Source of the DNA: Olsenella massiliensis
GTDB taxonomy: Bacteria > Actinomycetota > Coriobacteriia > Coriobacteriales > Atopobiaceae
Direction: 5' to 3'
NCBI RefSeq assembly: GCF_001457795.1
Contig: NZ_LN898211.1
Location: 124,001 to 188,000 of the forward strand
Length of the DNA stretch: 64,000 nt
The notes below the pieces were generated by a model, which saw only the letters and a program-made list of their open reading frames with translations, had not been told where the DNA came from and did no database searches. The position numbers and the translations under genes are program-made. Below are positions 15,989-33,216 of this stretch, piece by piece; position 1 is the stretch's first letter; each line of letters opens with the position of its first letter.

Positions 15989-16204
15989 GATTGCGGGGCC
16001 CAGCTCGCGGGGTCCAAGACTGTTCGCATGGCGCCGGGTGTCGTCTCAACGTGTCCGTTTGGACAGGTCGTAAAAAAACGAGTCCTGGGCAAACGCAAAA
16101 GTTGGCCTTCGCAACGTACACTTTAGGCGGAGGGTGCCGAACATCCGGCCCAGTGTAACGGTGCCGTTTTCGATGTGCCCGAGCGAGGGAGGGGTGCCGC
16201 GATC

Positions 16205-17185
16205 ATGACGTGGAGATGTCTGAGGGCGCTGCGTGACGCCTGCCTGGGGCGGGCGTCGTCTTGCACGTCAGCGACAAAGCGGCCTGGGGCGGAACAGTGC
16301 GCGCAGGTTGCGAATTCGCCAGCTCTGGGCGCGCAGGCTGCACCCCCGCAGGTCGTGGACGCGCAAGACCCTGCCCTCGAGGCCGCCAGCGGCTTGGATT
16401 CTGGCGCCGTCCCTGGTCACGGGACCGCCAGCCTCGACCCCATCGGCCCGCCCGACCCCGCCACGCACGCTCTGACGATTGCCACCTGCGCCAACGTCCG
16501 TGAGCTGGGGGACTATGACACGCCATTCGGCCCCACGCGCCTTCACCGCTTCCTTCGTGCCGGCGACACCTGTGCCGTCAGCGCGGATGACGCACGGCGT
16601 CTGTGTGCCTACGGGGTCGCGGCGGACGCGGACCTTCGCAGCTCCTGGGAGCTTGAGCACGCGCCCGACCTGCTGGGCTCCCAACCGCACGTCCGCTACC
16701 GCAACGTGCAGCTTCACGCGTACAACCTGCGGGAGGGCGAACCGGACCTGCCCGATGACGAGCGCGGCTACCTGATGCGCGGGTACCTTGCGATGCTGAA
16801 GAATCACTCAGCCGTCCGCGAGCTCATGTCGTTCTTCGCGTCTGCCGACGAGGACGAGTGCGTCCTCTTCCACTGCGCCGCCGGCATGGACCGCACGGGC
16901 GTCGTCTCACTCCTGCTTCTGGGGCTTTGCGAGGTGAGTCGAGAAGACCTGCTGCGCGACTATCTCTACTCCTTTGCGCCGCCGTCGCTCGTCGAGAGGC
17001 TCGTGCGGGGCGAAGAGCCGTCTTTGGAGGAAGATGACTGGGGGGCCGCGATGCTCGCGGGCGTCATGGACGCGGTCATCGACTGGTTGCTGCGGCGGTA
17101 CGGCAGCGTGCGCGGCTACCTGCTTGCCTGTGGGTGTGACGCTCATGAGCTGGACGCCGTTCGTCGTCACCTTGTCGGCGCGTAG
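16205..17185 (+). CDS. Tyrosine-protein phosphatase family protein
   Basis: The 326-residue product has an Ala/Pro-rich N-terminal 95 residues of no known role, then a tyrosine-phosphatase-like (Y_phosphatase3) domain starting at NVRELGDYDTPFG. The catalytic loop is HCAAGMDRTG (Cys224, Arg230). Substrates may be phosphoprotein or phosphoinositide; family members vary. The ATG at 16205 follows GAGGGAGGGG and is preferred over one at 16175. Its catalytic domain is paralogous to the N-terminal half of the protein at 24806, sharing NVRELG and the R-FLR-G and DAR segments. Confidence 0.85.
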   Translation: MTWRCLRALRDACLGRASSCTSATKRPGAEQCAQVANSPALGAQAAPPQVVDAQDPALEAASGLDSGAVPGHGTASLDPIGPPDPATHALTIATCANVRELGDYDTPFGPTRLHRFLRAGDTCAVSADDARRLCAYGVAADADLRSSWELEHAPDLLGSQPHVRYRNVQLHAYNLREGEPDLPDDERGYLMRGYLAMLKNHSAVRELMSFFASADEDECVLFHCAAGMDRTGVVSLLLLGLCEVSREDLLRDYLYSFAPPSLVERLVRGEEPSLEEDDWGAAMLAGVMDAVIDWLLRRYGSVRGYLLACGCDAHELDAVRRHLVGA

Positions 17186-19477: not shown

Positions 19478-20434
19478 CTACTCTTTAGCGTCCTTGATGT
19501 TGTGAGCGTATTCCTTCCAGAGCGGGCACTCCTGCCAGCCTTTGGTGAAGCCCATGCGGCGGAGCTCACTGGCACTAAGGCGGTCCAAAAGTTTGAAGAG
19601 ACGCTCACGCCAGGACGTCTCAGGTGCAATGTGCTCCAGCAGATAGCTCAGGATTATGAGGATGCCGAACATGTTGTCCGACCTCACGCTGAAGGGCTCA
19701 TGCCATTCCGGATGTTTCGACCGCTTGGGAATGATTGGTCTGGTGCCGATGCCCCTGTTCCAGAGGCGGCCATGGTGCGCGCATATGTTACGCACCGTGT
19801 TTATGGTCACGAGCCAAGATTCCAGCACGCGCGAGCTCACGCCCAAGTCGTTTGCGAGCTTCTTCCTGATTTCAGCTGGTGCGCCGTTGAAGAGCCTGAT
19901 CATGGTGCCAAAGTCCATCAGGTTGACGAGTATCCAGTAGGGAGGAAGCTCGTGCTCGTCACCATAAGCCTCTTTGAAGTGGAGGGCGAAAGGCTCACGT
20001 GAGCGTCTGAGCTCATCTTTGCAGCGCGCTATGAACCTGTCATACTCGCCCTGCTTGAGCCTTGGCAGGTTGTTAGCGTCGAGGAATCCGAAGGTACCGG
20101 TCTCTCTGGCAAGTTCGTATGCGAGCTGTGTGCGGAAGTAGACCTCGACGCGCTCTATGGCATCGAATACGACAAGCCTGAACTGCCGGTCGAAGATATA
20201 GAGGTGCCAGATCTGGTCGAACGATGTCCCCTCGATGAAGCGCTCGTCCTGTGTACCATCTTTGGCGCCTCTTGGCTGACGCTTAAAGATGTACCAGTAT
20301 CCGCTCAGGCGGTAGTAACCAATGTCAGCGAGGTGCTTGATAAGATTGTCGCGGTCGGCCACGAGGCCACGCTTGTTGATGAGAAGGTCTGCCTGCTGCT
20401 CGAAGGACAGCCAAGATTTCGCGTACGTTCCCAC
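19478..20434 (-). CDS. Abi_2-family (AbiF/AbiD-like) abortive infection protein
   Basis: The 318-residue product matches the Abi_2 (PF07751) family. Its N-terminus is KSWLSFEQQADLLINKRG, followed by GYYRLSGYWYIF, the central LYIFDRQFRLVVFDAIERVEVYFRT, and a HEPN RNase motif RNICAH (Arg215, His220) followed by HGRLWNR. Such proteins are RNA-cleaving toxins in phage defence, and HEPN Abi proteins are considered relatives of Cas13. The start is GTG at 20434; a GGAGG lies 12 bases upstream, rather far. Base composition is less GC-rich than its neighbours, consistent with acquisition. It stands alone but carries a structured leader just upstream. Confidence 0.88.
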   Translation of the reverse strand: MGTYAKSWLSFEQQADLLINKRGLVADRDNLIKHLADIGYYRLSGYWYIFKRQPRGAKDGTQDERFIEGTSFDQIWHLYIFDRQFRLVVFDAIERVEVYFRTQLAYELARETGTFGFLDANNLPRLKQGEYDRFIARCKDELRRSREPFALHFKEAYGDEHELPPYWILVNLMDFGTMIRLFNGAPAEIRKKLANDLGVSSRVLESWLVTINTVRNICAHHGRLWNRGIGTRPIIPKRSKHPEWHEPFSVRSDNMFGILIILSYLLEHIAPETSWRERLFKLLDRLSASELRRMGFTKGWQECPLWKEYAHNIKDAKE

Positions 20435-21766: not shown

Positions 21767-21835
21767 CCATAACCACATACATTGCGCTCATGTGCTCCTA
21801 TGCTGCAGCCAACATGCCAACGTAAAGGAGCGACC

Positions 21836-23581
21836 ATGATGGACAACGGCAATGTCGGCGGCAACAAGACGCTCGATCTCTCTCGCACGGTCTTCGACCT
21901 TGTAAGCGAACGTCCCGAGCTGGCTCACATCCTATCTGAGCTCGGGTTTTCCGAGATAGATAACAACGCGATACTTCATTCGGCAGGTCGGGTCATGACC
22001 ATCCCCAAGGGCGCTAGAATCAAGGGAATCTCCCTGGATGACGTCATCCGCGGCCTTGAGGCGCGTGGCTTCACGGTCGTGGGGGCACCGGGGCCCGCGC
22101 CTGCGGCGCCCGGAGCGACATCGGCGTCTGGGACTACGCCGGCCGCGTCCAAAGCGTCCCTCTCGGAGAATCCGCCCACTTCGTCCGCTTCGTCCGCTCC
22201 GTCGACCCCGTTCGGACGGGCGGCCAATCGCACGGAGCAGATCAAGGGCTATCTGCGCCGACTGGGTGCGGGCGAGGATCTCGAGGCGGTCCGCAGCGAC
22301 TTCGTGAGGGAGTTCAGCGATGTTGATGCCTCAGAGATCATGCGCGCCGAACAGGAGATCCTGAACGAGGGGACCCCGCTTGACGAGGTGCAGCGCCTCT
22401 GCGACGTCCACTCCGCGCTCTTTCACGGCTCGACCCTCGAAGAGCGCCTCGCCCATGCCGAGTCTGAGGCTGCGGCGTCCGTCGCCCATGGCAACGAGTC
22501 GGCCCTCGAGCGCGCGTCGCGTGCTCTGGCGGCAAACCCGCCTGCCGCCGCCTCTTCCGATGTCGCCGCGCCGGCCTCGGCTCCCGCCTCTCCTGAAGCA
22601 GGATCCGCCTCTCCCGCGGCGGCGCGCGCCTCTTCCACGGCGGCACTCGAGACCGTGGAGGGACACCCCCTTCAGACCTTCTCTCGCGAGAACAAGCGCA
22701 TCGAGGCGCTGATTGCCGAGCTCCTGCAGGTTCTGGACGCAGGGGAGGACCCCTCGGCCCTGCTCGCGCGCCTGCGTGAGGTGGCCATCCACTACGCCAA
22801 GAAGGGCGACCTCCTCTATCCGCAGCTCAGAACCAGGCATAACATCACGGGCCCGGCAATGGTCATGTGGACCGTTGACGACGAGATTCGCGATGAGCTG
22901 TCCGCGCTCTACAGGGACCAGGACCGCAGCGCCATGTGGTTCTCCCGTCTGCGGGCGGTCGTCGGTCGCGCGAGCGAGATGGTCTACAAGGAGCGCAACA
23001 TCCTCTTTCCCGTCTGCGCCGAGACCTTTGGGGATGACGAGTGGGTGGGCATCTATCACGACGCCAAGGACTACGCCAGCTGCCTGGGCGTCCAGGGAGC
23101 CGTGTGGCAGGAGGCCGAGGACGCGCTCGCCCACGAGGCGTCAGGGGCCACGACGGGTGCCAGCATGGAGGAGGAGGTTCGCATGCCGGGCGGACATCTG
23201 ACGGTTCCTCAGCTCACGGCCATGCTCAACACGCTTCCGCTTGAGATTACGTTCGTGGATGCGGACAACATCAACCGCTTCTTCAACGAGGGGCCCAAGG
23301 TGTTCAAGCGCGCGGGCATGGCCATCGACCGCGATGTGTTCTCCTGCCACCCGCCCAAGGTGGAGCCCATGGTCCGAGCCATCATCGAAAGCTTCCGCGA
23401 CGGCACCAAGGACAGCGTGCCCGTGTGGATGGAAAAGGGCGGACGCACCATGCTTGTGACCTATTGGGCCGTTCGGGATGGGGGAGGCTCCTACGTCGGC
23501 ACGGTCGAGACGGTGCAGGACATGGAGTTCGCCAAGGAGCACTTCTTGCGCGTCAGGCCTGACGCAGGGCGTCGTCGCTGA
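21836..23581 (+). CDS. DUF1858-DUF438-hemerythrin-PAS sensor protein
   Basis: The 581-residue product has four parts. Residues 1-75 are DUF1858-like (LSRTVFDLVSERPELAHIL). About 135-215 is DUF438-like (EQIKGYLRRLGAGEDL). About 290-430 is a hemerythrin-type four-helix region (HPLQTFSRENKRIEALI, HYAKKGDLLYPQL, GPAMVMWTVDDEIRDE). The C-terminal 120 residues are a PAS domain (LEITFVDADNINRFFNEG). Ala/Pro/Ser linkers join them. Such proteins are thought to sense oxygen, NO or redox state; the ligand is not known here. The ATG follows AAAGGAGCGACC. It overlaps the 3' end of the convergent Crp/Fnr gene by 29 bases, suggesting a working pair. Confidence 0.82.
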   Translation: MMDNGNVGGNKTLDLSRTVFDLVSERPELAHILSELGFSEIDNNAILHSAGRVMTIPKGARIKGISLDDVIRGLEARGFTVVGAPGPAPAAPGATSASGTTPAASKASLSENPPTSSASSAPSTPFGRAANRTEQIKGYLRRLGAGEDLEAVRSDFVREFSDVDASEIMRAEQEILNEGTPLDEVQRLCDVHSALFHGSTLEERLAHAESEAAASVAHGNESALERASRALAANPPAAASSDVAAPASAPASPEAGSASPAAARASSTAALETVEGHPLQTFSRENKRIEALIAELLQVLDAGEDPSALLARLREVAIHYAKKGDLLYPQLRTRHNITGPAMVMWTVDDEIRDELSALYRDQDRSAMWFSRLRAVVGRASEMVYKERNILFPVCAETFGDDEWVGIYHDAKDYASCLGVQGAVWQEAEDALAHEASGATTGASMEEEVRMPGGHLTVPQLTAMLNTLPLEITFVDADNINRFFNEGPKVFKRAGMAIDRDVFSCHPPKVEPMVRAIIESFRDGTKDSVPVWMEKGGRTMLVTYWAVRDGGGSYVGTVETVQDMEFAKEHFLRVRPDAGRRR

Positions 23582-24227
23582 GGACAAACTCGCTCAGGTG
23601 ATAGGTCAGCAGGCCCTCCTGCCGCATCTTGCCCAGCTCCTTTGAGAGGGCGCTGCGGTTGACGCCCAGGTATTCTGCGAGCTGCTGGCGCGAGAAGGGC
23701 GTTCTGACGCGCGGGCCGCCCTGCCGCGCGGCAAGCTCCGAGAGATACGAGAGCACGCGCCCCCTGATGGTCTTGGGGGCGATGTGCATCATGCGTCGGG
23801 ATAGGCCCAGGCTCTTCTCGGCCGAGATGCGCACGAGGTTATAGATGAGCTGGTGATGGTGGCCGCAGGCGCGCGTGCAGGTGGTGAGCAGCCTTTCGAG
23901 CGAGACAAAGAGCACGCGAGCGGGTTCGGCGGCCACGATGTTGCAGGTCATTTGCTGGTCAGAGAGGGCGGCGTAGTTCTGCGCGAAGATGTCGCCTCGC
24001 GGGATGTGCCCAAAGATGCGTGTCTCGCCCCAACAGAGGTTGACCACCACGTTGGCGCTGCCCTTCTCGATGAGGCCGATCTCCCTGGTGACGTCCCCGG
24101 CGCGAAGAATTGCCTCGTCCTTGGCGAACGAGCGCTCGTGGGCGCCGAGGCAGGGAAGGACCTCCTCGATGTCCTGAGGCGACATACCCAGGAAGAGCTG
24201 CGTGTGCGAGAGCGACTGGCAGTTCAT
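23553..24227 (-). CDS. Crp/Fnr-family transcriptional regulator
   Basis: 224 residues: an N-terminal cyclic-nucleotide-binding-like beta-barrel (LRAGDVTREIGLIEKGSANV), a dimer helix, and a C-terminal winged helix (TPFSRQQLAEYLGVNRSALSKEL). Cysteines occur at MNCQ and in CTRACGHHHQ before the dimer helix, so a redox or metal cofactor is possible, but no full Fnr cluster pattern is present. The chosen ATG (24227) follows CGGAGACCCC; an earlier in-frame ATG would add 16 non-family residues. A palindrome overlaps its promoter, so autoregulation is likely. Confidence 0.88.
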   Translation of the reverse strand: MNCQSLSHTQLFLGMSPQDIEEVLPCLGAHERSFAKDEAILRAGDVTREIGLIEKGSANVVVNLCWGETRIFGHIPRGDIFAQNYAALSDQQMTCNIVAAEPARVLFVSLERLLTTCTRACGHHHQLIYNLVRISAEKSLGLSRRMMHIAPKTIRGRVLSYLSELAARQGGPRVRTPFSRQQLAEYLGVNRSALSKELGKMRQEGLLTYHLSEFVLSDDALRQA

Positions 24228-24287
24228 GGGGTCTCCGATGTGGCGGCGCGGGAACGGATAAGCGGATGGTGGCACTTACGTCAACTC

Positions 24288-24320
24288 ATTGTACCCGGCT
24301 TTGTTGTCGCAGCAACAAAG
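24288..24320 (-). promoter_or_regulatory. Promoter and palindromic operator of the Crp/Fnr gene
   Basis: On the minus strand TTGCTG (24315-24310), a 16-base spacer and TACAAT (24293-24288) form a promoter. The perfect palindrome CTTTGTTG-N6-CAACAAAG (24299-24320) covers the -35, as expected for an autorepressor. Confidence 0.6.
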
Positions 24321-24383
24321 GCGCAGGGCTCTGGGACTTGATACATTGCCCTGCATCTATGCGCGATCCGTCTGGCGTTCGCA

Positions 24384-24446
24384 CAAACCGCATTAGTCGG
24401 CCTTTTTTGGAGTTTTGAGTCCAAAAAGGCCGACTAATGCGGTTTG
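24384..24446. repeat. Long palindromic repeat, copy 1
   Basis: Arms of 26-27 bases (starting CAAACCGCATTAGTCGGCC) are inverted copies of each other around AGTTTTGAGT, with one extra T in the left arm. A diverged copy lies at 36901-36961. It sits in a gene-poor gap. Possibly a REP/MITE-type element; as RNA it would fold into a very stable hairpin. Confidence 0.8.
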
Positions 24447-24805
24447 TAGAGGGGCGAAAAGATATGCCACACGTCAGCAATGTGCTTGCAAGGGCATCCC
24501 ATCCATTAGTTTGAATCATGCGCCAAGAAGTGCCTGATACCTGTAGGGGCACACTGGATAACAAACCATTCGTGTTTTCCCGTGATAATTGTGGCCCAGA
24601 AAATCCCAGCTACGGCGCCGCGCGGGCGACCCATCGTGATGATGTAGTTTATGAGCTAAATAAACTTCCCCGGGGAGGCCGCCGTCAAACATGCCTCATT
24701 GACCCACCACATGTCCATGCGAAGACGTGCGGCGAGCGACGTGGTCGGACACATGTCAGGCTGCTACGATGAGCTCAGGACCATGCGAGCGAAAGGGGTG
24801 ATGGC
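24447..24805 (+). other. Gap with no recognised gene
   Basis: About 360 bases, more AT-rich at its left, between the palindromic repeat and the phosphatase-EIIA gene. No reading frame has convincing coding character and no clear promoter was seen. It could hold worn remnants of a lost gene. Confidence 0.4.
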
Positions 24806-26296
24806 ATGCGCCTTCTGGGCAGAGGCCGGCAGCGGGGCGCCGCCCGCAGCGGCTGTGAGACGGGCCAGGTCGACATCGCGACGGGCATCAACGTCCGCGA
24901 GCTCGGCGGCTTTCCCACGCCCTCGGGCACCACGCGCTATCGGCGCTTTCTGCGCTCTGGCTCCACGGCGCGCATCAGCCCCTCCGACGCGCGCGAGCTC
25001 TTTGACTACGGCGTGCGGCGCATCCTCGACCTGCGCGGCAAGGAGGAGGTCGCCAACAGCCCCGAAAGCCTGCTGTCGCTGCGCAACGTCGAGTACCTCA
25101 ACGTGCCGCTCTACGACTTTGACATCTCGGCGGGCGTGCTCGCGCACGAGGACGACGCGGGCGGCTATCTTACCGAGAACCTCCTTTCCATGCTCGAGAA
25201 CCGCGCGGCCTTCCGGCAGATCTTCACCTTCCTGGCGCACGCGCCGCGCTCGGCGTGCACGCTCTTCCACTGCGGAGCGGGAAGCGACCGCACGGGCCTT
25301 CTCTCACTGGTGCTTCTGGGGCTCGCGGGCGTCGAGAGGCGCCAGCTCGTGGCCGACTACGTCTACTCCTTTGGCTACATCCCCGAGGTCAACGCGGCCA
25401 TCTTCGAGCGCGTGGGGGAGGGCGCCCGCACCCTCCAGGTGCGCGGCGAGCTTAGGACGAGGATTGCGTCCATCTCGCTCGTGCACGACCGCATCCACGA
25501 GACGTTTGGCGGCTACGAGGGCTTCCTGAGGTCCTGCGGCGTCCGCGAATCCGAGATTTCCCAGGTGCGGGCGCTTCTGCTTCGCCGCTTTCCAGGACGC
25601 TACCGCATGCCCGCCGAGGAGACGCTCGTCTCGAGCGCCGAGCTGCTCCACCGAGACATCCCGGGGCCCGTCGCGAACACGACCTTCTTCGTCCATGCCT
25701 ACGAGCGCCCCGACAAGGTGACCGCAGACCTCTACTACATGAGCGACAAGACGCGCGACCTCATGGCGCGCATCGACGAGAACCAGCGCAACCGCTCCTT
25801 CCACGACCACGACTACGTGACCCTGGAGGTGCCCCTCGAGGAGAGGGGCAAGCTCTTCGCCCCCGTGACGGGGGAGCTCCTTGCGCTGTCCGACGTGGAC
25901 GACCCGTACTTTGCGAGCGGCGCCTGCGGGGCGGGGGTGGCCATCGTCCCAAGCGGGAACACGGTGTACGCGCCCGCCGCCTGTCGCGTGACGGTGCAGG
26001 TTCCCACGCGCCACGCCATTGGCGTGCTGACCCAGGACGGCATCGAGGTCCTCATCGTCGTCGCCTCCTCAACGGCGTCGGCCAGCAGGCGAGGCTTCCG
26101 CCAGCACGTGTGGCAGAACGACTCGGCGCATCGCGGCACGCCGCTTTTGTCGTGGGACCCCACCCTGGTGGGAAAGGACGCGTCGAGCCCCGTCCTCATG
26201 ATCGTCACCAACTCGAGCGAGTTCTCCCGCCTGGACATCCGCGACAGCGGCAGCGTCCAGGTGGGCGACGAGGTTGCCTCGATCTCCTGGGAGTGA
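24806..26296 (+). CDS. Tyrosine phosphatase fused to a glucose-type PTS EIIA domain lacking the phospho-histidine
   Basis: 496 residues. The N-terminal half (about 25-270) is a Y_phosphatase3-type domain, INVRELGGFPTPSGTTRYRRFL, with P-loop HCGAGSDRTG (Cys156, Arg162). From about residue 350 the sequence is clearly EIIA-Glc-like: FAPVTGELLALSDVDDPYF, VAIVPSGNTVYAP, RHAIGVLTQDGIEVLI, and LLSWDPTLV. The auxiliary histidine (His403) is kept, but the residue that normally carries the phosphate is Val418 (LIVVAS where active EIIAs have LIHVG). It cannot pass phosphate and is more likely a sensor or docking domain. It lies 195 bases before a mannose-family PTS. ATG 24806 has the better ribosome-site spacing (GAAAGGGG); ATG 24801 is out of frame. 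Confidence 0.85.
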   Translation: MRLLGRGRQRGAARSGCETGQVDIATGINVRELGGFPTPSGTTRYRRFLRSGSTARISPSDARELFDYGVRRILDLRGKEEVANSPESLLSLRNVEYLNVPLYDFDISAGVLAHEDDAGGYLTENLLSMLENRAAFRQIFTFLAHAPRSACTLFHCGAGSDRTGLLSLVLLGLAGVERRQLVADYVYSFGYIPEVNAAIFERVGEGARTLQVRGELRTRIASISLVHDRIHETFGGYEGFLRSCGVRESEISQVRALLLRRFPGRYRMPAEETLVSSAELLHRDIPGPVANTTFFVHAYERPDKVTADLYYMSDKTRDLMARIDENQRNRSFHDHDYVTLEVPLEERGKLFAPVTGELLALSDVDDPYFASGACGAGVAIVPSGNTVYAPAACRVTVQVPTRHAIGVLTQDGIEVLIVVASSTASASRRGFRQHVWQNDSAHRGTPLLSWDPTLVGKDASSPVLMIVTNSSEFSRLDIRDSGSVQVGDEVASISWE

Positions 26297-26392
26297 GGGG
26301 TCGCAACGGCCCCCGGCGACAGGAAACGTACAGGACAACGAGACGTCTTCACCGTTTCAGAAAGATTTGGACACATCTCCTCCATAACACGG

Positions 26393-26398
26393 TATACT
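26393..26398 (+). promoter_or_regulatory. Probable -10 box before the first mannose-family PTS
   Basis: TATACT lies about 90 bases upstream of the EIIA start. The only -35-like hexamer, TTGGAC, is 20 bases away, so the promoter is weak or activated. Confidence 0.35.
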
Positions 26399-26490
26399 GA
26401 CAGTTGGTTTGGCGAAGTCCCGAGGCCACCAAGACAAAGTTGCACTCGGGCGGTCGTGGGTTCGCTCATGTCGCTATGGAAGGAGACCGC

Positions 26491-26916
26491 ATGCGCTATC
26501 TGTTGATCGTGAGCCATGGCACGTTTGCCCCCGGGCTGCATAGCGTGCTCGACATGCTGGTGGGCGAGAGGGATGACGTCCTTGACTGCTGCATGACCAG
26601 CGACATGGGCGCCGAGGCCTATGTCCAGAAGCTCGAGGAGACGGTGGCCCCCATCGGCGCCGATGACTCCGTCTTCCTGTTTGGCGACGTCATAGGCGGG
26701 TCCCCCCTCACCAACGCCATGAACGTCCTCACCAAGAAGGGCATCATGGAGCATCTGACCGTGTTTGGCGGCGCCAACCTTCCCATGGTCATCACGGCCG
26801 CCATGGAGGCCGACGAGGACGACGCCACCCTCAAGGAGCGCGTCATCGCCGAGGGTCAGGCCGCCATCCGTGAGTTTGTGCTCGACCTGGGCGGCGACGA
26901 GGACGAGGACCTCTGA
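26491..26916 (+). CDS. PTS mannose/fructose/sorbose-family EIIA
   Basis: A 141-residue free EIIA of the mannose class: MRYLLIVSHGTFAPGL, with the phosphorylated His9, and DVIGGSPLTNAM typical of the family. It takes phosphate from HPr and passes it to EIIB. The C-terminus is acidic (GGDEDEDL). Start follows AAGGAGACCGC. It is the first gene of a four-gene permease with EIIB, EIIC and EIID all separate, unlike the fused EIIAB of the second system at 33217. Confidence 0.93.
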   Translation: MRYLLIVSHGTFAPGLHSVLDMLVGERDDVLDCCMTSDMGAEAYVQKLEETVAPIGADDSVFLFGDVIGGSPLTNAMNVLTKKGIMEHLTVFGGANLPMVITAAMEADEDDATLKERVIAEGQAAIREFVLDLGGDEDEDL

Positions 26917-27002
26917 GGCACGCTTCGTGCGAAAGCCAACGTCCCCGCGTCGCGCAGCGGCGCATCGCAGGTTTTCCCGTCAACCAGAAAGGAAGCGTCC
27001 CC

Positions 27003-27500
27003 ATGATCTCATTCGTTCGTATCGATGACCGCATGATTCACGGCCAGACCGTCACCCGCTGGGCCCTGGAGTTCCCCTGCGACGGCATCATCGCCGTCAA
27101 CGACGCGGCGGCCAACAACCCCGTCCTCAAGGCCGCCTACAAGGGCGCCGCACCCGAAAAGAAGACCTTCGTCTGGACGCTCGACCACTTCAAGGAGAGC
27201 ATGGAGAAGGTCCTCGCGAGCAAGACGAACTACTTCCTCATCACCAAGAACCCTGTGGACATGAAGAAGATCCTCGTGGACTTTGGCTTCAAGCCCTCCT
27301 CGATCAAGACCGTCATCGTGGGCCCGTGCAACGATCGTCCCGGCGCCGTGAAGCTGGGCAACAACCAGTCCATCACCCCCGAGGAGGCCCAGGCCATCGA
27401 GGACATCACCAAGGCGGGCTACAGCGTCGAGTTCGCGCTCCTCAAGGACAACGCCATCGGCAACTGGTCCAAGTTCCGCAGTCGCTTCGACCTTCAGTAG
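27003..27500 (+). CDS. PTS mannose/fructose/sorbose-family EIIB
   Basis: 165 residues, starting MISFVRIDDRMIHGQTVTRW, in which His13 of RxIHGQ is the phosphorylation site. It transfers phosphate to the incoming sugar. The ATG follows AGAAAGGAAGCGTCCCC. A GGGGCC/GGCCCC hairpin in the 97 bases before EIIC (about 27510-27532) may adjust stoichiometry. The substrate cannot be read from sequence. Confidence 0.93.
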   Translation: MISFVRIDDRMIHGQTVTRWALEFPCDGIIAVNDAAANNPVLKAAYKGAAPEKKTFVWTLDHFKESMEKVLASKTNYFLITKNPVDMKKILVDFGFKPSSIKTVIVGPCNDRPGAVKLGNNQSITPEEAQAIEDITKAGYSVEFALLKDNAIGNWSKFRSRFDLQ

Positions 27501-27597
27501 GCACCACGGGGCCTCTCGTGCGAGGGCCCCTCGACATAGTCGATCCGCCCCTTTTGGAGGGCGGAGGAGCATCTAGGTAAGAAAGGTGGCATGCGTT

Positions 27598-28461
27598 ATG
27601 GCAATCAATGCACTTCAGGCCGCGTTGCTGGGTCTCTTTGCCTGCCTGGCCTCCCTGCCAGGCATGGGCGGCACGACCATCGGTAACTACACCCTTGGTC
27701 GACCCCTCGTCGGAGGCCTCTTCGTCGGTCTCATCCTTGGCGACGTCCAGTCCGGCATCATCGTCGGCGCGGCCATCCAGGTCGTCTACATCGCCCTGGT
27801 GACCCCCGGCGGAACCGTCTCCGCCGACGTGCGCGCCGTGACCTACATCGGCATCCCCCTGTCAATCCTGGCCATTCACGCCCAGGGCCTCGACCCCAGC
27901 TCCGCCGCCGCCGCGTCGCTCGCCGCCGCCCTCGGCGCCGCCGTCGGCACCCTCGGCACCGTCCTGTTCTATGGCACCGCCACGCTCAACCTCGTGTGGC
28001 AGTCCATCGGCTGGAAGGCCATGGAGACCCGCGACTGGAACACCATCAAGCGTCAGATCCCGCTCGTCGACTTTGTCTATCCCTGGATTTCGCACGTCCT
28101 GTTCTCCTTCATTCCCACGTTCATCATCTGCATGGCCGGCTCCCAGATGGTCCAGCTCATGAAGGACTACATGCCCATGGACGGCCTGGCCATGAAGACG
28201 CTGTTCACCGTCGGCTCCCTTCTTCCCGCCGTCGGTATCGCCATCCTGTGCAAGCAGGTCATCAACAAGCCTCTTGACTGGCTGACCTTTGCCTTTGGCT
28301 TCACGCTCGCGGCCTGCCTGCACCTCAATCTCATCGCGTGCGCCGTCGTGGCCGCGTTCTTCGCGCTCATCAAGTATCAGATCGAGGAGGCCAAGGTCGC
28401 CCGTCCCGCCATTTCCGGTGGTGTCGGCGCCTCCGACGACGAGGAAGAGGAGGACATCTAA
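27598..28461 (+). CDS. PTS mannose/fructose/sorbose-family EIIC
   Basis: A 287-residue membrane channel subunit: LLGLFACLASLPGMGGTTIG, then RPLVGGLFVGLILGDVQSG, the hallmark of ManY-type proteins, with many hydrophobic helices. The C-terminal tail is acidic (DDEEEEDI). ATG 27598 follows AAGAAAGGTGG; a GTG four codons earlier is less likely. It is two bases from EIID. Confidence 0.92.
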   Translation: MAINALQAALLGLFACLASLPGMGGTTIGNYTLGRPLVGGLFVGLILGDVQSGIIVGAAIQVVYIALVTPGGTVSADVRAVTYIGIPLSILAIHAQGLDPSSAAAASLAAALGAAVGTLGTVLFYGTATLNLVWQSIGWKAMETRDWNTIKRQIPLVDFVYPWISHVLFSFIPTFIICMAGSQMVQLMKDYMPMDGLAMKTLFTVGSLLPAVGIAILCKQVINKPLDWLTFAFGFTLAACLHLNLIACAVVAAFFALIKYQIEEAKVARPAISGGVGASDDEEEEDI

Positions 28462-28463
28462 TC

Positions 28464-29357
28464 ATGGCCGAGACCAAGAAGATTTCCACCGGTGCCCGCA
28501 GGAAGTCCTTTAGGAACTGGGCCTACGGCAACCTGACCTGCTTCTCACAGGCGCACATGCAGACGTTTGGCTACCTTGCCGCCATGCTTCCCATCGTGGA
28601 CGAGCTCTACGACAAGGACGAGGACAAGGTCAGCGCGCTTGAGACGTACACCACGTTCTTCAACACCGAGCCCCAGATCGGCACCATGGTCGTGGGCCTC
28701 ACGGCCGGCCTCGAGGAGGCTCGCGCCAACGGTGAGGCCATCGACGACGAGACCATCAACGGCATCCGCGCCGGCCTGATGGGCCCCCTCGCCGGCCTCG
28801 GCGACTCCATCATCGTCGGCACGTTCATCCCCATCCTGCTGGGCATCGCCCTTGGCCTGTCCGCCGGCGGCTCGGTCCTGGGTCCCCTGTTCTACATCGT
28901 CGCGTGGAACGTCCTCATGTACTTTGGCATGAAGCTCGCCTATGACCGCGGCTACGAGCTCGGCGGCTCCGCCGTCCAGGCTCTCGTCGGTCCCGAGTCC
29001 CAGGCCCTGCGCAGCGCCATTCTGATGGTGGGCGCCATGGTCATCGGCGCCGTCGCCGCCACCTGGGTCTCCATCAGCACGGCGCTCGTGCTGCCGGGCG
29101 TCGGGCCGCTCGAGAACGTCCTGTGGTCCAGCAGCTCCACCGTCACGGCCGAGGCGCTCAACGCCACCGGCGCGGTGTCGCTCAACGTCTTTGGCTCGGG
29201 CATCTTCCCCAAGCTCCTCAACTTCGTGTTCGTGTATCTCTGCTGGTGGATGATGACCAAGAAGAAGATCGGCGTGATTCCGGTCATGCTCATCCTGGTC
29301 GCCGTCGCCTTCGTGGGCGTGCTCGTGGGCTTCTTCAACCCCGGCCTGTCCTACTAG
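28464..29357 (+). CDS. PTS mannose/fructose/sorbose-family EIID
   Basis: A 297-residue second membrane subunit: FRNWAYGNLTCFSQAHMQTFG, GLMGPLAGLGDSIIVGTFIPI, and a hydrophobic C-terminus ending in a conserved glycine-rich helix (GVLVGFFNPGLSY). With EIIC it forms the translocation channel. It starts two bases after the EIIC stop, so the two are coupled. Confidence 0.92.
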   Translation: MAETKKISTGARRKSFRNWAYGNLTCFSQAHMQTFGYLAAMLPIVDELYDKDEDKVSALETYTTFFNTEPQIGTMVVGLTAGLEEARANGEAIDDETINGIRAGLMGPLAGLGDSIIVGTFIPILLGIALGLSAGGSVLGPLFYIVAWNVLMYFGMKLAYDRGYELGGSAVQALVGPESQALRSAILMVGAMVIGAVAATWVSISTALVLPGVGPLENVLWSSSSTVTAEALNATGAVSLNVFGSGIFPKLLNFVFVYLCWWMMTKKKIGVIPVMLILVAVAFVGVLVGFFNPGLSY

Positions 29358-29433
29358 GCGCGCGGGCGGGGCGCCGACCCCCGGACGGGGCGTCGGTCCC
29401 CGCAGGTCCGGCATAGCCGTCATAGTGAAAGAC

Positions 29434-29462
29434 GGGGTGGGGTCCACTGGCGGCCCCACCCC
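29434..29462 (+). terminator. GC-rich hairpin after the first PTS operon
   Basis: GGGGTGGGG (29434-29442) pairs with CCCCACCCC (29454-29462). Another imperfect stem (CCGACCCC with GGGGcgTCGG) lies at about 29374-29396. Neither has a strong U-run; one or both probably end or attenuate the PTS transcript. Confidence 0.5.
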
Positions 29463-29521
29463 GTTCGTAAGCTTTGCGGACGACGCGGCCCAGTCGACGC
29501 GAGCGGGTGGCAGGCGTTGGC

Positions 29522-29596
29522 GCGGCCAGGGGGGGCCCGGCGGCCAGGGGGCCAGGGAGCCCGGCGGCCAGGGAGCCCGGCGGCCAGGGAGGCTGG
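29522..29596. repeat. GC-rich minisatellite
   Basis: Four to five copies of a 16-base unit built around GGCGGCCAGGGAGCCC, the last two identical, in the gap before the small membrane gene at 29653. Likely slippage-prone and able to change copy number. Confidence 0.75.
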
Positions 29597-29652
29597 TGGC
29601 TGGGTCGCCTTCGCCCCTTTCACAATCGTCCGCAGGACAGAAAGGCGCAGTC

Positions 29653-30144
29653 ATGCACACGAGCGAGAGTGACCTCACGCGACGCGAGGAGGCGACCACG
29701 GCAACAACGGCGGCAGGCGCGACCGACGCGACCGACGCGACCGATGCGACCAAAGCGGCCGATGCTCAGCCGACGCCCGTCACGGTCCCCGGAGGCTTTG
29801 CGCCCGGCGCGCGCCACGTGGTCACGGGGAAGCGGGTCTCGCCCGAGCGCAGGGAGGCCCTCATCCGCGAGGCGGACGTGCAGACGCGCGCCATCATGAA
29901 CCTGGAGGTGTGGAAGCGCATCGCCTACTCCCTGCTGGCCGTGGGGGCGCTGCTCGCCTACTGGAACATCTATCAGGGCGGTCCCGCCTGGGCGCTCATC
30001 GTGGGGATAGGCACGTTCGTCCTTTCGGCCTTGGCCTCGGTCATGCTGTACATGGTGGTGGAGCGAGGCAAGGCCAACGTCAGGACCATGATGACGGCGG
30101 CGGGCGTGAGCCTGGAGAGGCCATCTGGCACAAAGAAGAAGTGA
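29653..30144 (+). CDS. Small two-helix membrane protein with ATD repeats, unknown function
   Basis: 163 residues. The N-terminal third is low complexity, with four tandem Ala-Thr-Asp triplets encoded by a 9-base repeat. Then come a charged segment (RVSPERREALIREADVQTRA) and two hydrophobic helices (YSLLAVGALLAYWNIY and ALIVGIGTFVLSALASVML), with a basic C-terminus ending KKK. I recognise no family. The ATG follows AGAAAGGCGCAGTC. Following a mannose-family PTS, it may be an accessory membrane protein, but nothing proves it. Confidence 0.65.
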   Translation: MHTSESDLTRREEATTATTAAGATDATDATDATKAADAQPTPVTVPGGFAPGARHVVTGKRVSPERREALIREADVQTRAIMNLEVWKRIAYSLLAVGALLAYWNIYQGGPAWALIVGIGTFVLSALASVMLYMVVERGKANVRTMMTAAGVSLERPSGTKKK

Positions 30145-30195
30145 CAGGGCAGACCCCCGCGGGGCAGGCTTTTCTCCCTTGCTCGCACGTTTCTA

Positions 30196-30220
30196 TTACG
30201 TTCGCCATTACGTACGAAAT
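30196..30220 (+). promoter_or_regulatory. Candidate DeoR-type operator before deoR
   Basis: TTACGTTCGCC (30196-30206) and TTACGTACGAAAT (30208-30220) are direct repeats, followed by a third related TCACGTAA at 30223-30230. The core GAACGAAA/GTACGAAA recurs at 33080, 38824 and 38980. Probably autoregulation by the DeoR protein encoded 74 bases downstream. Confidence 0.5.
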
Positions 30221-30293
30221 TATCACGTAAAAGGCGCTACGGAAAGCGCTACAGTAGCTTCGTGAGAAACGTTGCGCGTCGAGCGGAGGGTGC

Positions 30294-31040
30294 ATGTCCA
30301 GGCGGGACAACCAGATACTCGAGATGCTCACCAAGGACAAGCGGCTCGAGGTCACGGCCCTTGCCGAACGTCTTGGCGTCTCGAACGTCACCATGCGAAA
30401 GGACCTCGACGCCCTTCAGGCCCTGGGCCTCGTGAAGCGCGAACATGGCTTCGCGCTCCTTTCCAACCCCAACGACCTTGGTGGGCGTCTCGCGTACCAC
30501 TACGAGGAAAAGCGCCGGATAGCACGAAAGGCCGCGGAGCTCGTTCCCGACGGGTCAACGGTCATGATCGAGAGCGGAAGCTGCTGCGCGCTTCTTGCCC
30601 GCGAGCTTGCCGACACCAGGCAGGGCGTGACCATCATCACCAACTGCGCCTTCATCGCGAGCTACATCCGCGACAGCGGCTCGGTCGAGACGACGCTGCT
30701 CGGTGGCGTGGTGCAGCGCGACTCGCAGGTCATGGTGGGTCCGCTCGTGCGGCTGTGCGCACGCGAGTTTCTCGTCGACTACCTGTTCGTGGGCGTGGAC
30801 GGCTGGTCGCCCGAGGTGGGCTTCACCAACGGCGACCACATGAGGGCCGATGCCGTGCGCGGCATGGCAACGTCGGTGAGCAAGGTCGTGGTGCTCACGG
30901 AGTCGGAGAAGTTCGGTCAGCACGGTTCGAGCCCGCTGCGCCTGACGGGGCATGACGTGCTGCTGTACACGGACGCGGGCATATCCGATGCATATCGCTC
31001 CGCCCTCGAGGGCGCCGGCGTGAGGGTGTCGACGGCATGA
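30294..31040 (+). CDS. DeoR-family transcriptional regulator
   Basis: 248 residues: an N-terminal winged helix (RLEVTALAERLGVSNVTMRK) and a DeoR C-terminal sugar-phosphate domain (EEKRRIARKAAELV, FVGVDGWSPEVGFTN). Such regulators respond to phosphorylated sugars. The ATG follows CGGAGGGTGC. Its stop overlaps the start of the TPR gene, so these are cotranscribed. Recurrent operator-like motifs at this promoter, the second PTS and the glycyl-radical genes suggest it controls the whole 30-42 kb island. Confidence 0.9.
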   Translation: MSRRDNQILEMLTKDKRLEVTALAERLGVSNVTMRKDLDALQALGLVKREHGFALLSNPNDLGGRLAYHYEEKRRIARKAAELVPDGSTVMIESGSCCALLARELADTRQGVTIITNCAFIASYIRDSGSVETTLLGGVVQRDSQVMVGPLVRLCAREFLVDYLFVGVDGWSPEVGFTNGDHMRADAVRGMATSVSKVVVLTESEKFGQHGSSPLRLTGHDVLLYTDAGISDAYRSALEGAGVRVSTA

Positions 31041-32844: not shown

Positions 32845-33216
32845 CGGGCGTGCCTGCGCCGCTCGGTGCCGCGCCGGCGACGGGCTTTGCGGCGCGCGGC
32901 GGGTCGTGTCGCACGTCTGCGGACGTAGGCATAGGACGTGCCATCATGCCGTTCAAGGACGATTTCCCACCGCCCGCCGGCCATGGGACATATCGTCATC
33001 CGTTGATTCTCAGGTGTATCACCACGTTTGGGCTGCAATTTGCCGTTCTTAAGATAATTCCTAGCGAAATCTATAGACTTTATGAACGAAACATTTTAGG
33101 ATTACGAAGGCATGAACTGACGACAAGCGCCGCGGCAGTCGTCACAACATGCGCACACACGCTTCATGCACGGTTCACGCATCGCTTCTTCTCACAGAAT
33201 GGAATGGAGGTCAGCA
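32845..33216 (+). other. Promoter gap before the second PTS
   Basis: 372 bases with no gene. The right half is markedly AT-rich (33030-33110), carries the DeoR-type motif and is the promoter region of the EIIAB gene. Confidence 0.5.
33080..33094 (+). promoter_or_regulatory. Candidate DeoR-type operator before the second PTS
   Basis: TTATGAACGAAACAT, nearly identical to TTATGAACGAAACA at 38824-38837. A partial second copy, ATTACGAAGG, follows at 33101-33110. Confidence 0.6.

Follow-up and report, generated by a model that had tools for sequence, protein, structure and literature searches.

We found that a gene of Olsenella massiliensis encodes a tyrosine-phosphatase-like protein whose C-terminal domain has the predicted fold of EIIA-Glc and lacks the histidine that accepts phosphate, and that this histidine is missing from all 12 members of the family to which the domain belongs. 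The gene lies at positions 24806 to 26296 (plus strand) of the stretch of DNA analyzed here (64,000 nucleotides, referred to as the window). The loss of the histidine in 12 of 12 members, the predicted fold, the grouping into a single clade, purifying selection, newly conserved motifs, and linkage to one clade of phosphatases support the interpretation that a permanently unphosphorylated EIIA-Glc serves a dedicated phosphatase of family PF13350 as its docking or regulatory subunit, fused to it or encoded separately. We put the chances of this interpretation at about even. A part of a transport relay seems to have been converted into a regulatory part.

The gene is an uninterrupted frame encoding 496 amino acids, and the choice of start codon agrees with the N-termini of homologues. 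A protein search in 60 relatives turned up four full-length fusions with 52-63% identity to the protein from the window. The phosphatase domain (residues 23-259; 24872 to 25582, plus strand, as for all parts of the gene below) was recognized by Pfam as PF13350 (Y_phosphatase3; 152.2 bits versus a cut-off of 22.2). The C-terminal domain (residues 349-496; 25850 to 26293), which we call the pseudo-EIIA, was recognized as PF00358 (PTS_EIIA_1; 108.4 bits versus a cut-off of 27.2; residues 349-471), and its score with the NCBIfam model for glucose IIA (TIGR00830; 86.4 bits) was below the curated cut-off of 97.5. The AlphaFold2 model of the pseudo-EIIA superimposed on E. coli IIA-Glc (1f3g) with a Z of 24.0 and an rmsd of 1.6 over 148 residues. 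In this fold, and with about 28-33% identity, the domain resembles EIIA-Glc of PF00358, including E. coli Crr and the IIA domain of B. subtilis PtsG. The model of the phosphatase domain matched the C. difficile PTP (8dhi; Z 19.2, rmsd 5.5 over 215 residues) and M. tuberculosis PtpB (MptpB; 1ywf; Z 17.9, rmsd 3.5 over 197 residues). The model of the full protein had a mean pLDDT of 81 and a pTM of 0.54, and the mutual placing of the two domains in it is not trustworthy.

The two domains are connected by a linker (residues 260-348; 25583 to 25849) that has two predicted helices (residues 288-324) followed by a flexible stretch. A second AlphaFold2 model, of the C-terminal half, gave the two helices with moderate confidence. 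The motif RSFHDHDY (25793 to 25816) lies beyond the helices, and its residues S331, D334, H335 and Y337 are invariant in all 12 members of the family. The invariant DH-Y (D334, H335, Y337) fell in a low-confidence part of the second model, and the stretch that contains it is probably flexible. Such a stretch would have the look expected of a short binding motif.

To locate the active site, the domain was aligned with E. coli IIA-Glc (chain 1ggr). The alignment had no gaps across the active site, and numbers in the protein from the window equal E. coli numbers plus 328. The phospho-acceptor H90 corresponds to Val418 (26057 to 26059) and the auxiliary H75 to His403 (26012 to 26014). The preliminary description had given the position of the gene, a valine at the acceptor position, and Cys156 and Arg162 in the phosphatase, and these were borne out by the open frame, the alignment with 1ggr, and the P-loop sequence HCGAGSDRTG. 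It had also taken the whole EIIA-Glc frame to be retained, with the auxiliary His403 as part of it. The fold is indeed kept; the HVGxDTV signature around the acceptor position is lost (G92 to Ala, D94 to Ser, V96 to Ala). His403 is present in the window and is not a trait of the family; the corresponding residue is Asn in the other 11 members. Because it is an exception among 12 relatives, His403 cannot be used as an argument.

There was no histidine at the phospho-acceptor position in any of the 12 pseudo-EIIAs, in which the residue was Thr (five), Val (three), Ala (three) or Ser (one). The five domains that are fused to a phosphatase have Val (the window, G002, G027), Ala (G018) or Ser (G035). 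Both of those encoded in tandem with a phosphatase gene (G151, G152) have Ala, and all five standalone pseudo-EIIAs have Thr. A catalytic histidine in close homologues had been named in the preliminary description as evidence against its proposal of an EIIA that cannot be phosphorylated; with none in 12 relatives, the proposed state proved to be a conserved one. The same result rules out a local mutation or sequencing error at Val418.

Canonical EIIAs from the family and the order, including one from the same genome as the window, had histidine at the acceptor position in 27 of 27 cases. The pattern used to choose these sequences left the acceptor residue free and demanded [DN]T at positions 94-95, so that part of their conservation at 94-95 results from the selection itself. 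V96, which was absent from the pattern, is kept in all 27. Both D94 and V96 are gone from all 12 pseudo-EIIAs, and five of them retain the D38/F41 loop, which is altered or deleted in the other seven. Other residues are newly fixed: in the motif RQHVWQND (26099 to 26122), R432, Q433, W436, Q437, N438 and D439 are invariant in the 12 pseudo-EIIAs and are not jointly conserved in canonical EIIAs. The family is set apart from EIIA-Glc by the missing histidine, the loss of D94 and V96, the TIGR00830 score below cut-off, and the joining to or pairing with a phosphatase.

We searched for relatives with a profile of the C-terminal half, within the phylum of the window. In 140 genomes of the family, 12 members spanned both the linker and the domain (E ≤ 1.8e-74). 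The next matches (E ~1e-35 or weaker) began only at the domain and were ordinary EIIAs. The 12 pseudo-EIIAs come from 11 genomes in eight genera of one family, and their distribution is patchy, with most congeners having none. A search of 397 genomes across the order recovered these 11 genomes again and added none, and in a sample of 396 genomes from the phylum, which contained few relatives, only the gene from the window matched. Some of the compared genomes are drafts. When named genomes were scanned for the C-terminal half, EIIA-like matches that start at the domain only were obtained in Enterococcus, Anaerorhabdus and Latilactobacillus; they are uninformative, as the patterns were taken from one protein. 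No paper describing a fusion of this kind, or a family of EIIA-Glc that cannot be phosphorylated, was found, which is weak evidence given the search terms used.

In a midpoint-rooted tree, the 12 pseudo-EIIAs formed one clade separate from the 27 canonical EIIAs (support 100/100). Estimates of dN/dS for the genes of the dead domain (Nei-Gojobori, close pairs) were 0.24 for G082/G085, 0.33 for G009/G077, and 0.05 for G151/G152, the last being rough because synonymous changes were near saturation. Judged by these ratios, the pseudo-EIIA domain is maintained by purifying selection.

The pseudo-EIIA is tied to a phosphatase in most of the genomes that encode it. It is fused to the phosphatase in five of the 12 cases (the window, G002, G018, G027, G035). 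The gene for the dead EIIA begins 8-9 bp behind the phosphatase gene in G151 and G152. The distance between the two genes is about 1.2 kb in G009 and 2.2 kb in G077, with a gene for a HAD-type phosphatase between them and, in G077, an RpiR-like gene as well. In G082, the phosphatase is on a different contig from the pseudo-EIIA, a split that may reflect the draft state of the genome. G085 has a dead EIIA, and no phosphatase of this family was found in the genome, whose draft status may make the absence incomplete evidence.

The phosphatases themselves are closely related. The ten best relatives of the phosphatase domain from the window, across the 140 genomes, are exactly those of the genomes with a pseudo-EIIA. 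In a tree of 37 rows (midpoint root), the phosphatases from these genomes (n = 10) formed one group (99/96), and the seven fused or tandem enzymes formed a subgroup (100/99) with the P-loop HCG(A/G)GSDRTG. The three other phosphatases of the clade and 25 further distinct relatives examined have HCAAGMDRTG, so that the residue at position 160 is Ser in the window and Met in 28 other distinct relatives. Because GSDR is restricted to the fused and tandem subclade, the P-loop changed on the branch of physical linkage.

The P-loop in the window (HCGAGSDRTG; 25268 to 25297) has all of the catalytic residues (C156, D161, R162) of the HCxxGxDRTG loop. In fold and in the Cys, Asp and Arg of this loop, the enzyme is like the PF13350 proteins MptpB and C. 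difficile PTP. The sequence HCXXGKDR is the signature of MptpB-type atypical lipid phosphatases, in which the Lys binds substrate (PMC3091653). Unlike MptpB, the enzyme in the window has Ser160 at the position of this Lys and has an EIIA-like domain attached. The replacement of the Lys argues against an MptpB-type lipid phosphatase, and membership in that group was ruled out on this signature. A second PF13350 phosphatase is encoded in the window at 16175 to 17185 (plus strand; 139.8 bits); it has no EIIA domain, and its P-loop is HCAAGMDRTG. PF13350 phosphatases are abundant in the family, with up to seven matches per genome among 11 genomes searched.

The fusion gene is followed by genes for a mannose-family PTS on the same strand, as the preliminary description had it. 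The EIIA gene (26476 to 26916; PF03610, 69 bits) starts about 180 bp downstream of the fusion, and the genes for EIIB, EIIC and EIID (PF03830, PF03609, PF03613) occupy 27003 to 29357, giving four components at about 26476 to 29357. A mannose PTS is also directly downstream and co-directional in G002 and G027, and in G152 it is about 1.3 kb off, with deoC in between. The fusion gene of G018 is away from the mannose PTS and lies divergently to a 633-aa ORF with an EIIA domain at its end, and that of G035 is neither at a mannose PTS nor at a site of the G018 type. Adjacency was thus not consistent, and most mannose PTS loci have no pseudo-EIIA gene. An EIIC of the mannose PTS is present in 79 of the 140 genomes and a pseudo-EIIA in only 11; therefore, the mannose PTS does not need the fusion gene. 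A function bound to the mannose PTS was set aside, because only some of the loci adjoin one. A scan for promoters and terminators from 24300 to 30400 gave sites that were no more frequent than in shuffled sequences.

Several other features surround these genes. In the window (29425 to 30144, plus strand), as in most of the compared loci, the mannose PTS is followed by a gene for a small putative membrane protein without a clear Pfam match. A second mannose-family PTS begins at 33166 (plus strand), about 4 kb after the first, and opens with an EIIA-EIIB fusion (PF03610 and PF03830). The region from 21782 to 24275 encodes a PAS/DUF438/DUF1858/hemerythrin protein and, next to it on the other strand, a Crp-like regulator, a possible redox- or gas-sensing pair, and 19481 to 20434 (minus strand) encodes an Abi_2 (abortive-infection-like) protein (184.7 bits). 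Elsewhere, the genome of the window encodes a canonical EIIA-Glc with both histidines, and HPr; these two would serve the actual phosphate relay in this cell.

The standalone pseudo-EIIAs have a different neighbor. Four of the five (the second copy in G035, and those in G077, G082 and G085) adjoin a gene for an RpiR-like regulator. These regulators scored at about the cut-off for HTH_6 and are 64-66% identical to the one in G077. The pairing was seen at L036, L074, L075 and L076, and the regulators of L075 and L036, scanned with a relaxed cut-off, gave no match to a SIS domain. Because of this adjacency, docking on a target outside the PTS is just as possible as docking on the PTS. The pairing also suggests that the domain may have a role independent of the phosphatase.

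These observations bear on what the dead domain might do. One explanation is that it docks on the neighboring mannose PTS or on HPr, and that the phosphatase then tunes uptake by dephosphorylating PTS proteins such as HPr Ser-P or EIIAB~P. We think this unlikely. In its favor, a mannose PTS follows the gene directly and in the same direction in the window, G002 and G027, and one is close by in G152. The loss of D94 and V96 in all 12 members and of the D38/F41 loop in seven makes the usual docking on HPr doubtful, the fusions of G018 and G035 are located elsewhere, and many more genomes have the EIIC than have a pseudo-EIIA. To our knowledge, no PTP-type enzyme is a phosphohistidine phosphatase. 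There is a precedent for a phosphatase tied to a PTS relay: SixA, which acts on the nitrogen PTS of E. coli (PMC6282199). SixA differs from the enzyme described here in being a phosphohistidine phosphatase, of another class, without an EIIA domain, and the PTS target proposed here comes from gene context. The preliminary description had proposed that a dead EIIA, as a sensor or docking domain, steers the phosphatase onto PTS or other phosphoproteins, and this was supported in part. The link to the phosphatase was strongly supported (five fusions, two tandem pairs, two neighboring pairs, and a clade confined to genomes with a pseudo-EIIA). The PTS would be a candidate target at the loci where it is a neighbor (the window, G002, G027 and G152, and not G018 or G035), and no such phosphatase was found in G085.

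The pocket of the dead domain might instead take a small molecule, such as a sugar phosphate, in place of the phosphohistidine, making the domain a sensor that gates the phosphatase allosterically. The changes in the pocket are patterned (H75 to Asn in 11 of 12; H90 to Val, Ala, Ser or Thr), and the neighborhoods contain sugar PTS genes, HAD Cof-type phosphatases, deoC, and RpiR-like regulators. However, the strongest new invariants (FRQ-WQND and the DH-Y of the linker) are away from the histidine pocket in the sequence, and we know of no EIIA-Glc domain that binds such a ligand; we consider a sensor of this kind unlikely too, if slightly less so than docking on the PTS. It is quite improbable that the domain is still phosphorylated at another site, either a Thr or Ser at the old position, as could be the case in six of 12 members, or the linker His335 within the DH-Y that is invariant in all 12. 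The other six, including the window, have Val or Ala, neither of which can carry phosphate, the residues that follow the active histidine in canonical EIIAs are gone, and the stretch with DH-Y is predicted to be flexible. Least probable of all is an inert relic carried as a passenger since the genes fused. The catalytic residues are gone and the D38/F41 loop is partly deleted in several members, as might be expected of a relic, but dN/dS of 0.05-0.33, the new invariant motifs, and intact standalone genes for this domain alone disfavor it.

We favor a docking or regulatory subunit of the phosphatase because EIIA-Glc, when unphosphorylated, binds other proteins and regulates them, and an allele locked in this state can still bind a partner (PMC10208484). 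In V. cholerae, the H91Q form of EIIA-Glc, which cannot be phosphorylated, still bound the regulator ChiS and partly repressed it, less strongly (PMC10208484). H91Q is a laboratory allele, whereas the loss described here is natural and conserved across genera. By analogy, the C-terminal domain would be locked in the dephosphorylated state and would transfer no phosphate. It would bind a partner protein, and this binding may position or gate the phosphatase, probably in the regulation of sugar uptake or sugar phosphates. There are points against such a subunit. The active-site histidine of EIIA-Glc is part of some partner interfaces (PMC10208484), and its loss could weaken the known modes of docking. 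In addition, the D38/F41 loop is lost in seven of 12 members, and in G085, which has a dead EIIA, no such phosphatase was found.

More tentatively, a naturally locked, dephosphorylated EIIA-Glc may be an exchangeable adaptor in a new type of signaling module. In one lineage, it would be the targeting subunit of a dedicated phosphatase whose P-loop changed upon linkage, and in another it would pair with an RpiR-like regulator; this is possible, and we hold it with less conviction than a subunit of the phosphatase. EIIA-Glc is a model case of a protein that relays phosphate and, in its unphosphorylated form, also binds partners and so regulates them. A natural family without phosphotransfer in which the fold was kept and re-tuned would separate these two roles and would exemplify the evolution of a PTS component into a pseudoenzyme adaptor. 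It would also provide a direct handle on the targets of PTP-like phosphatases, of which these bacteria have so many.
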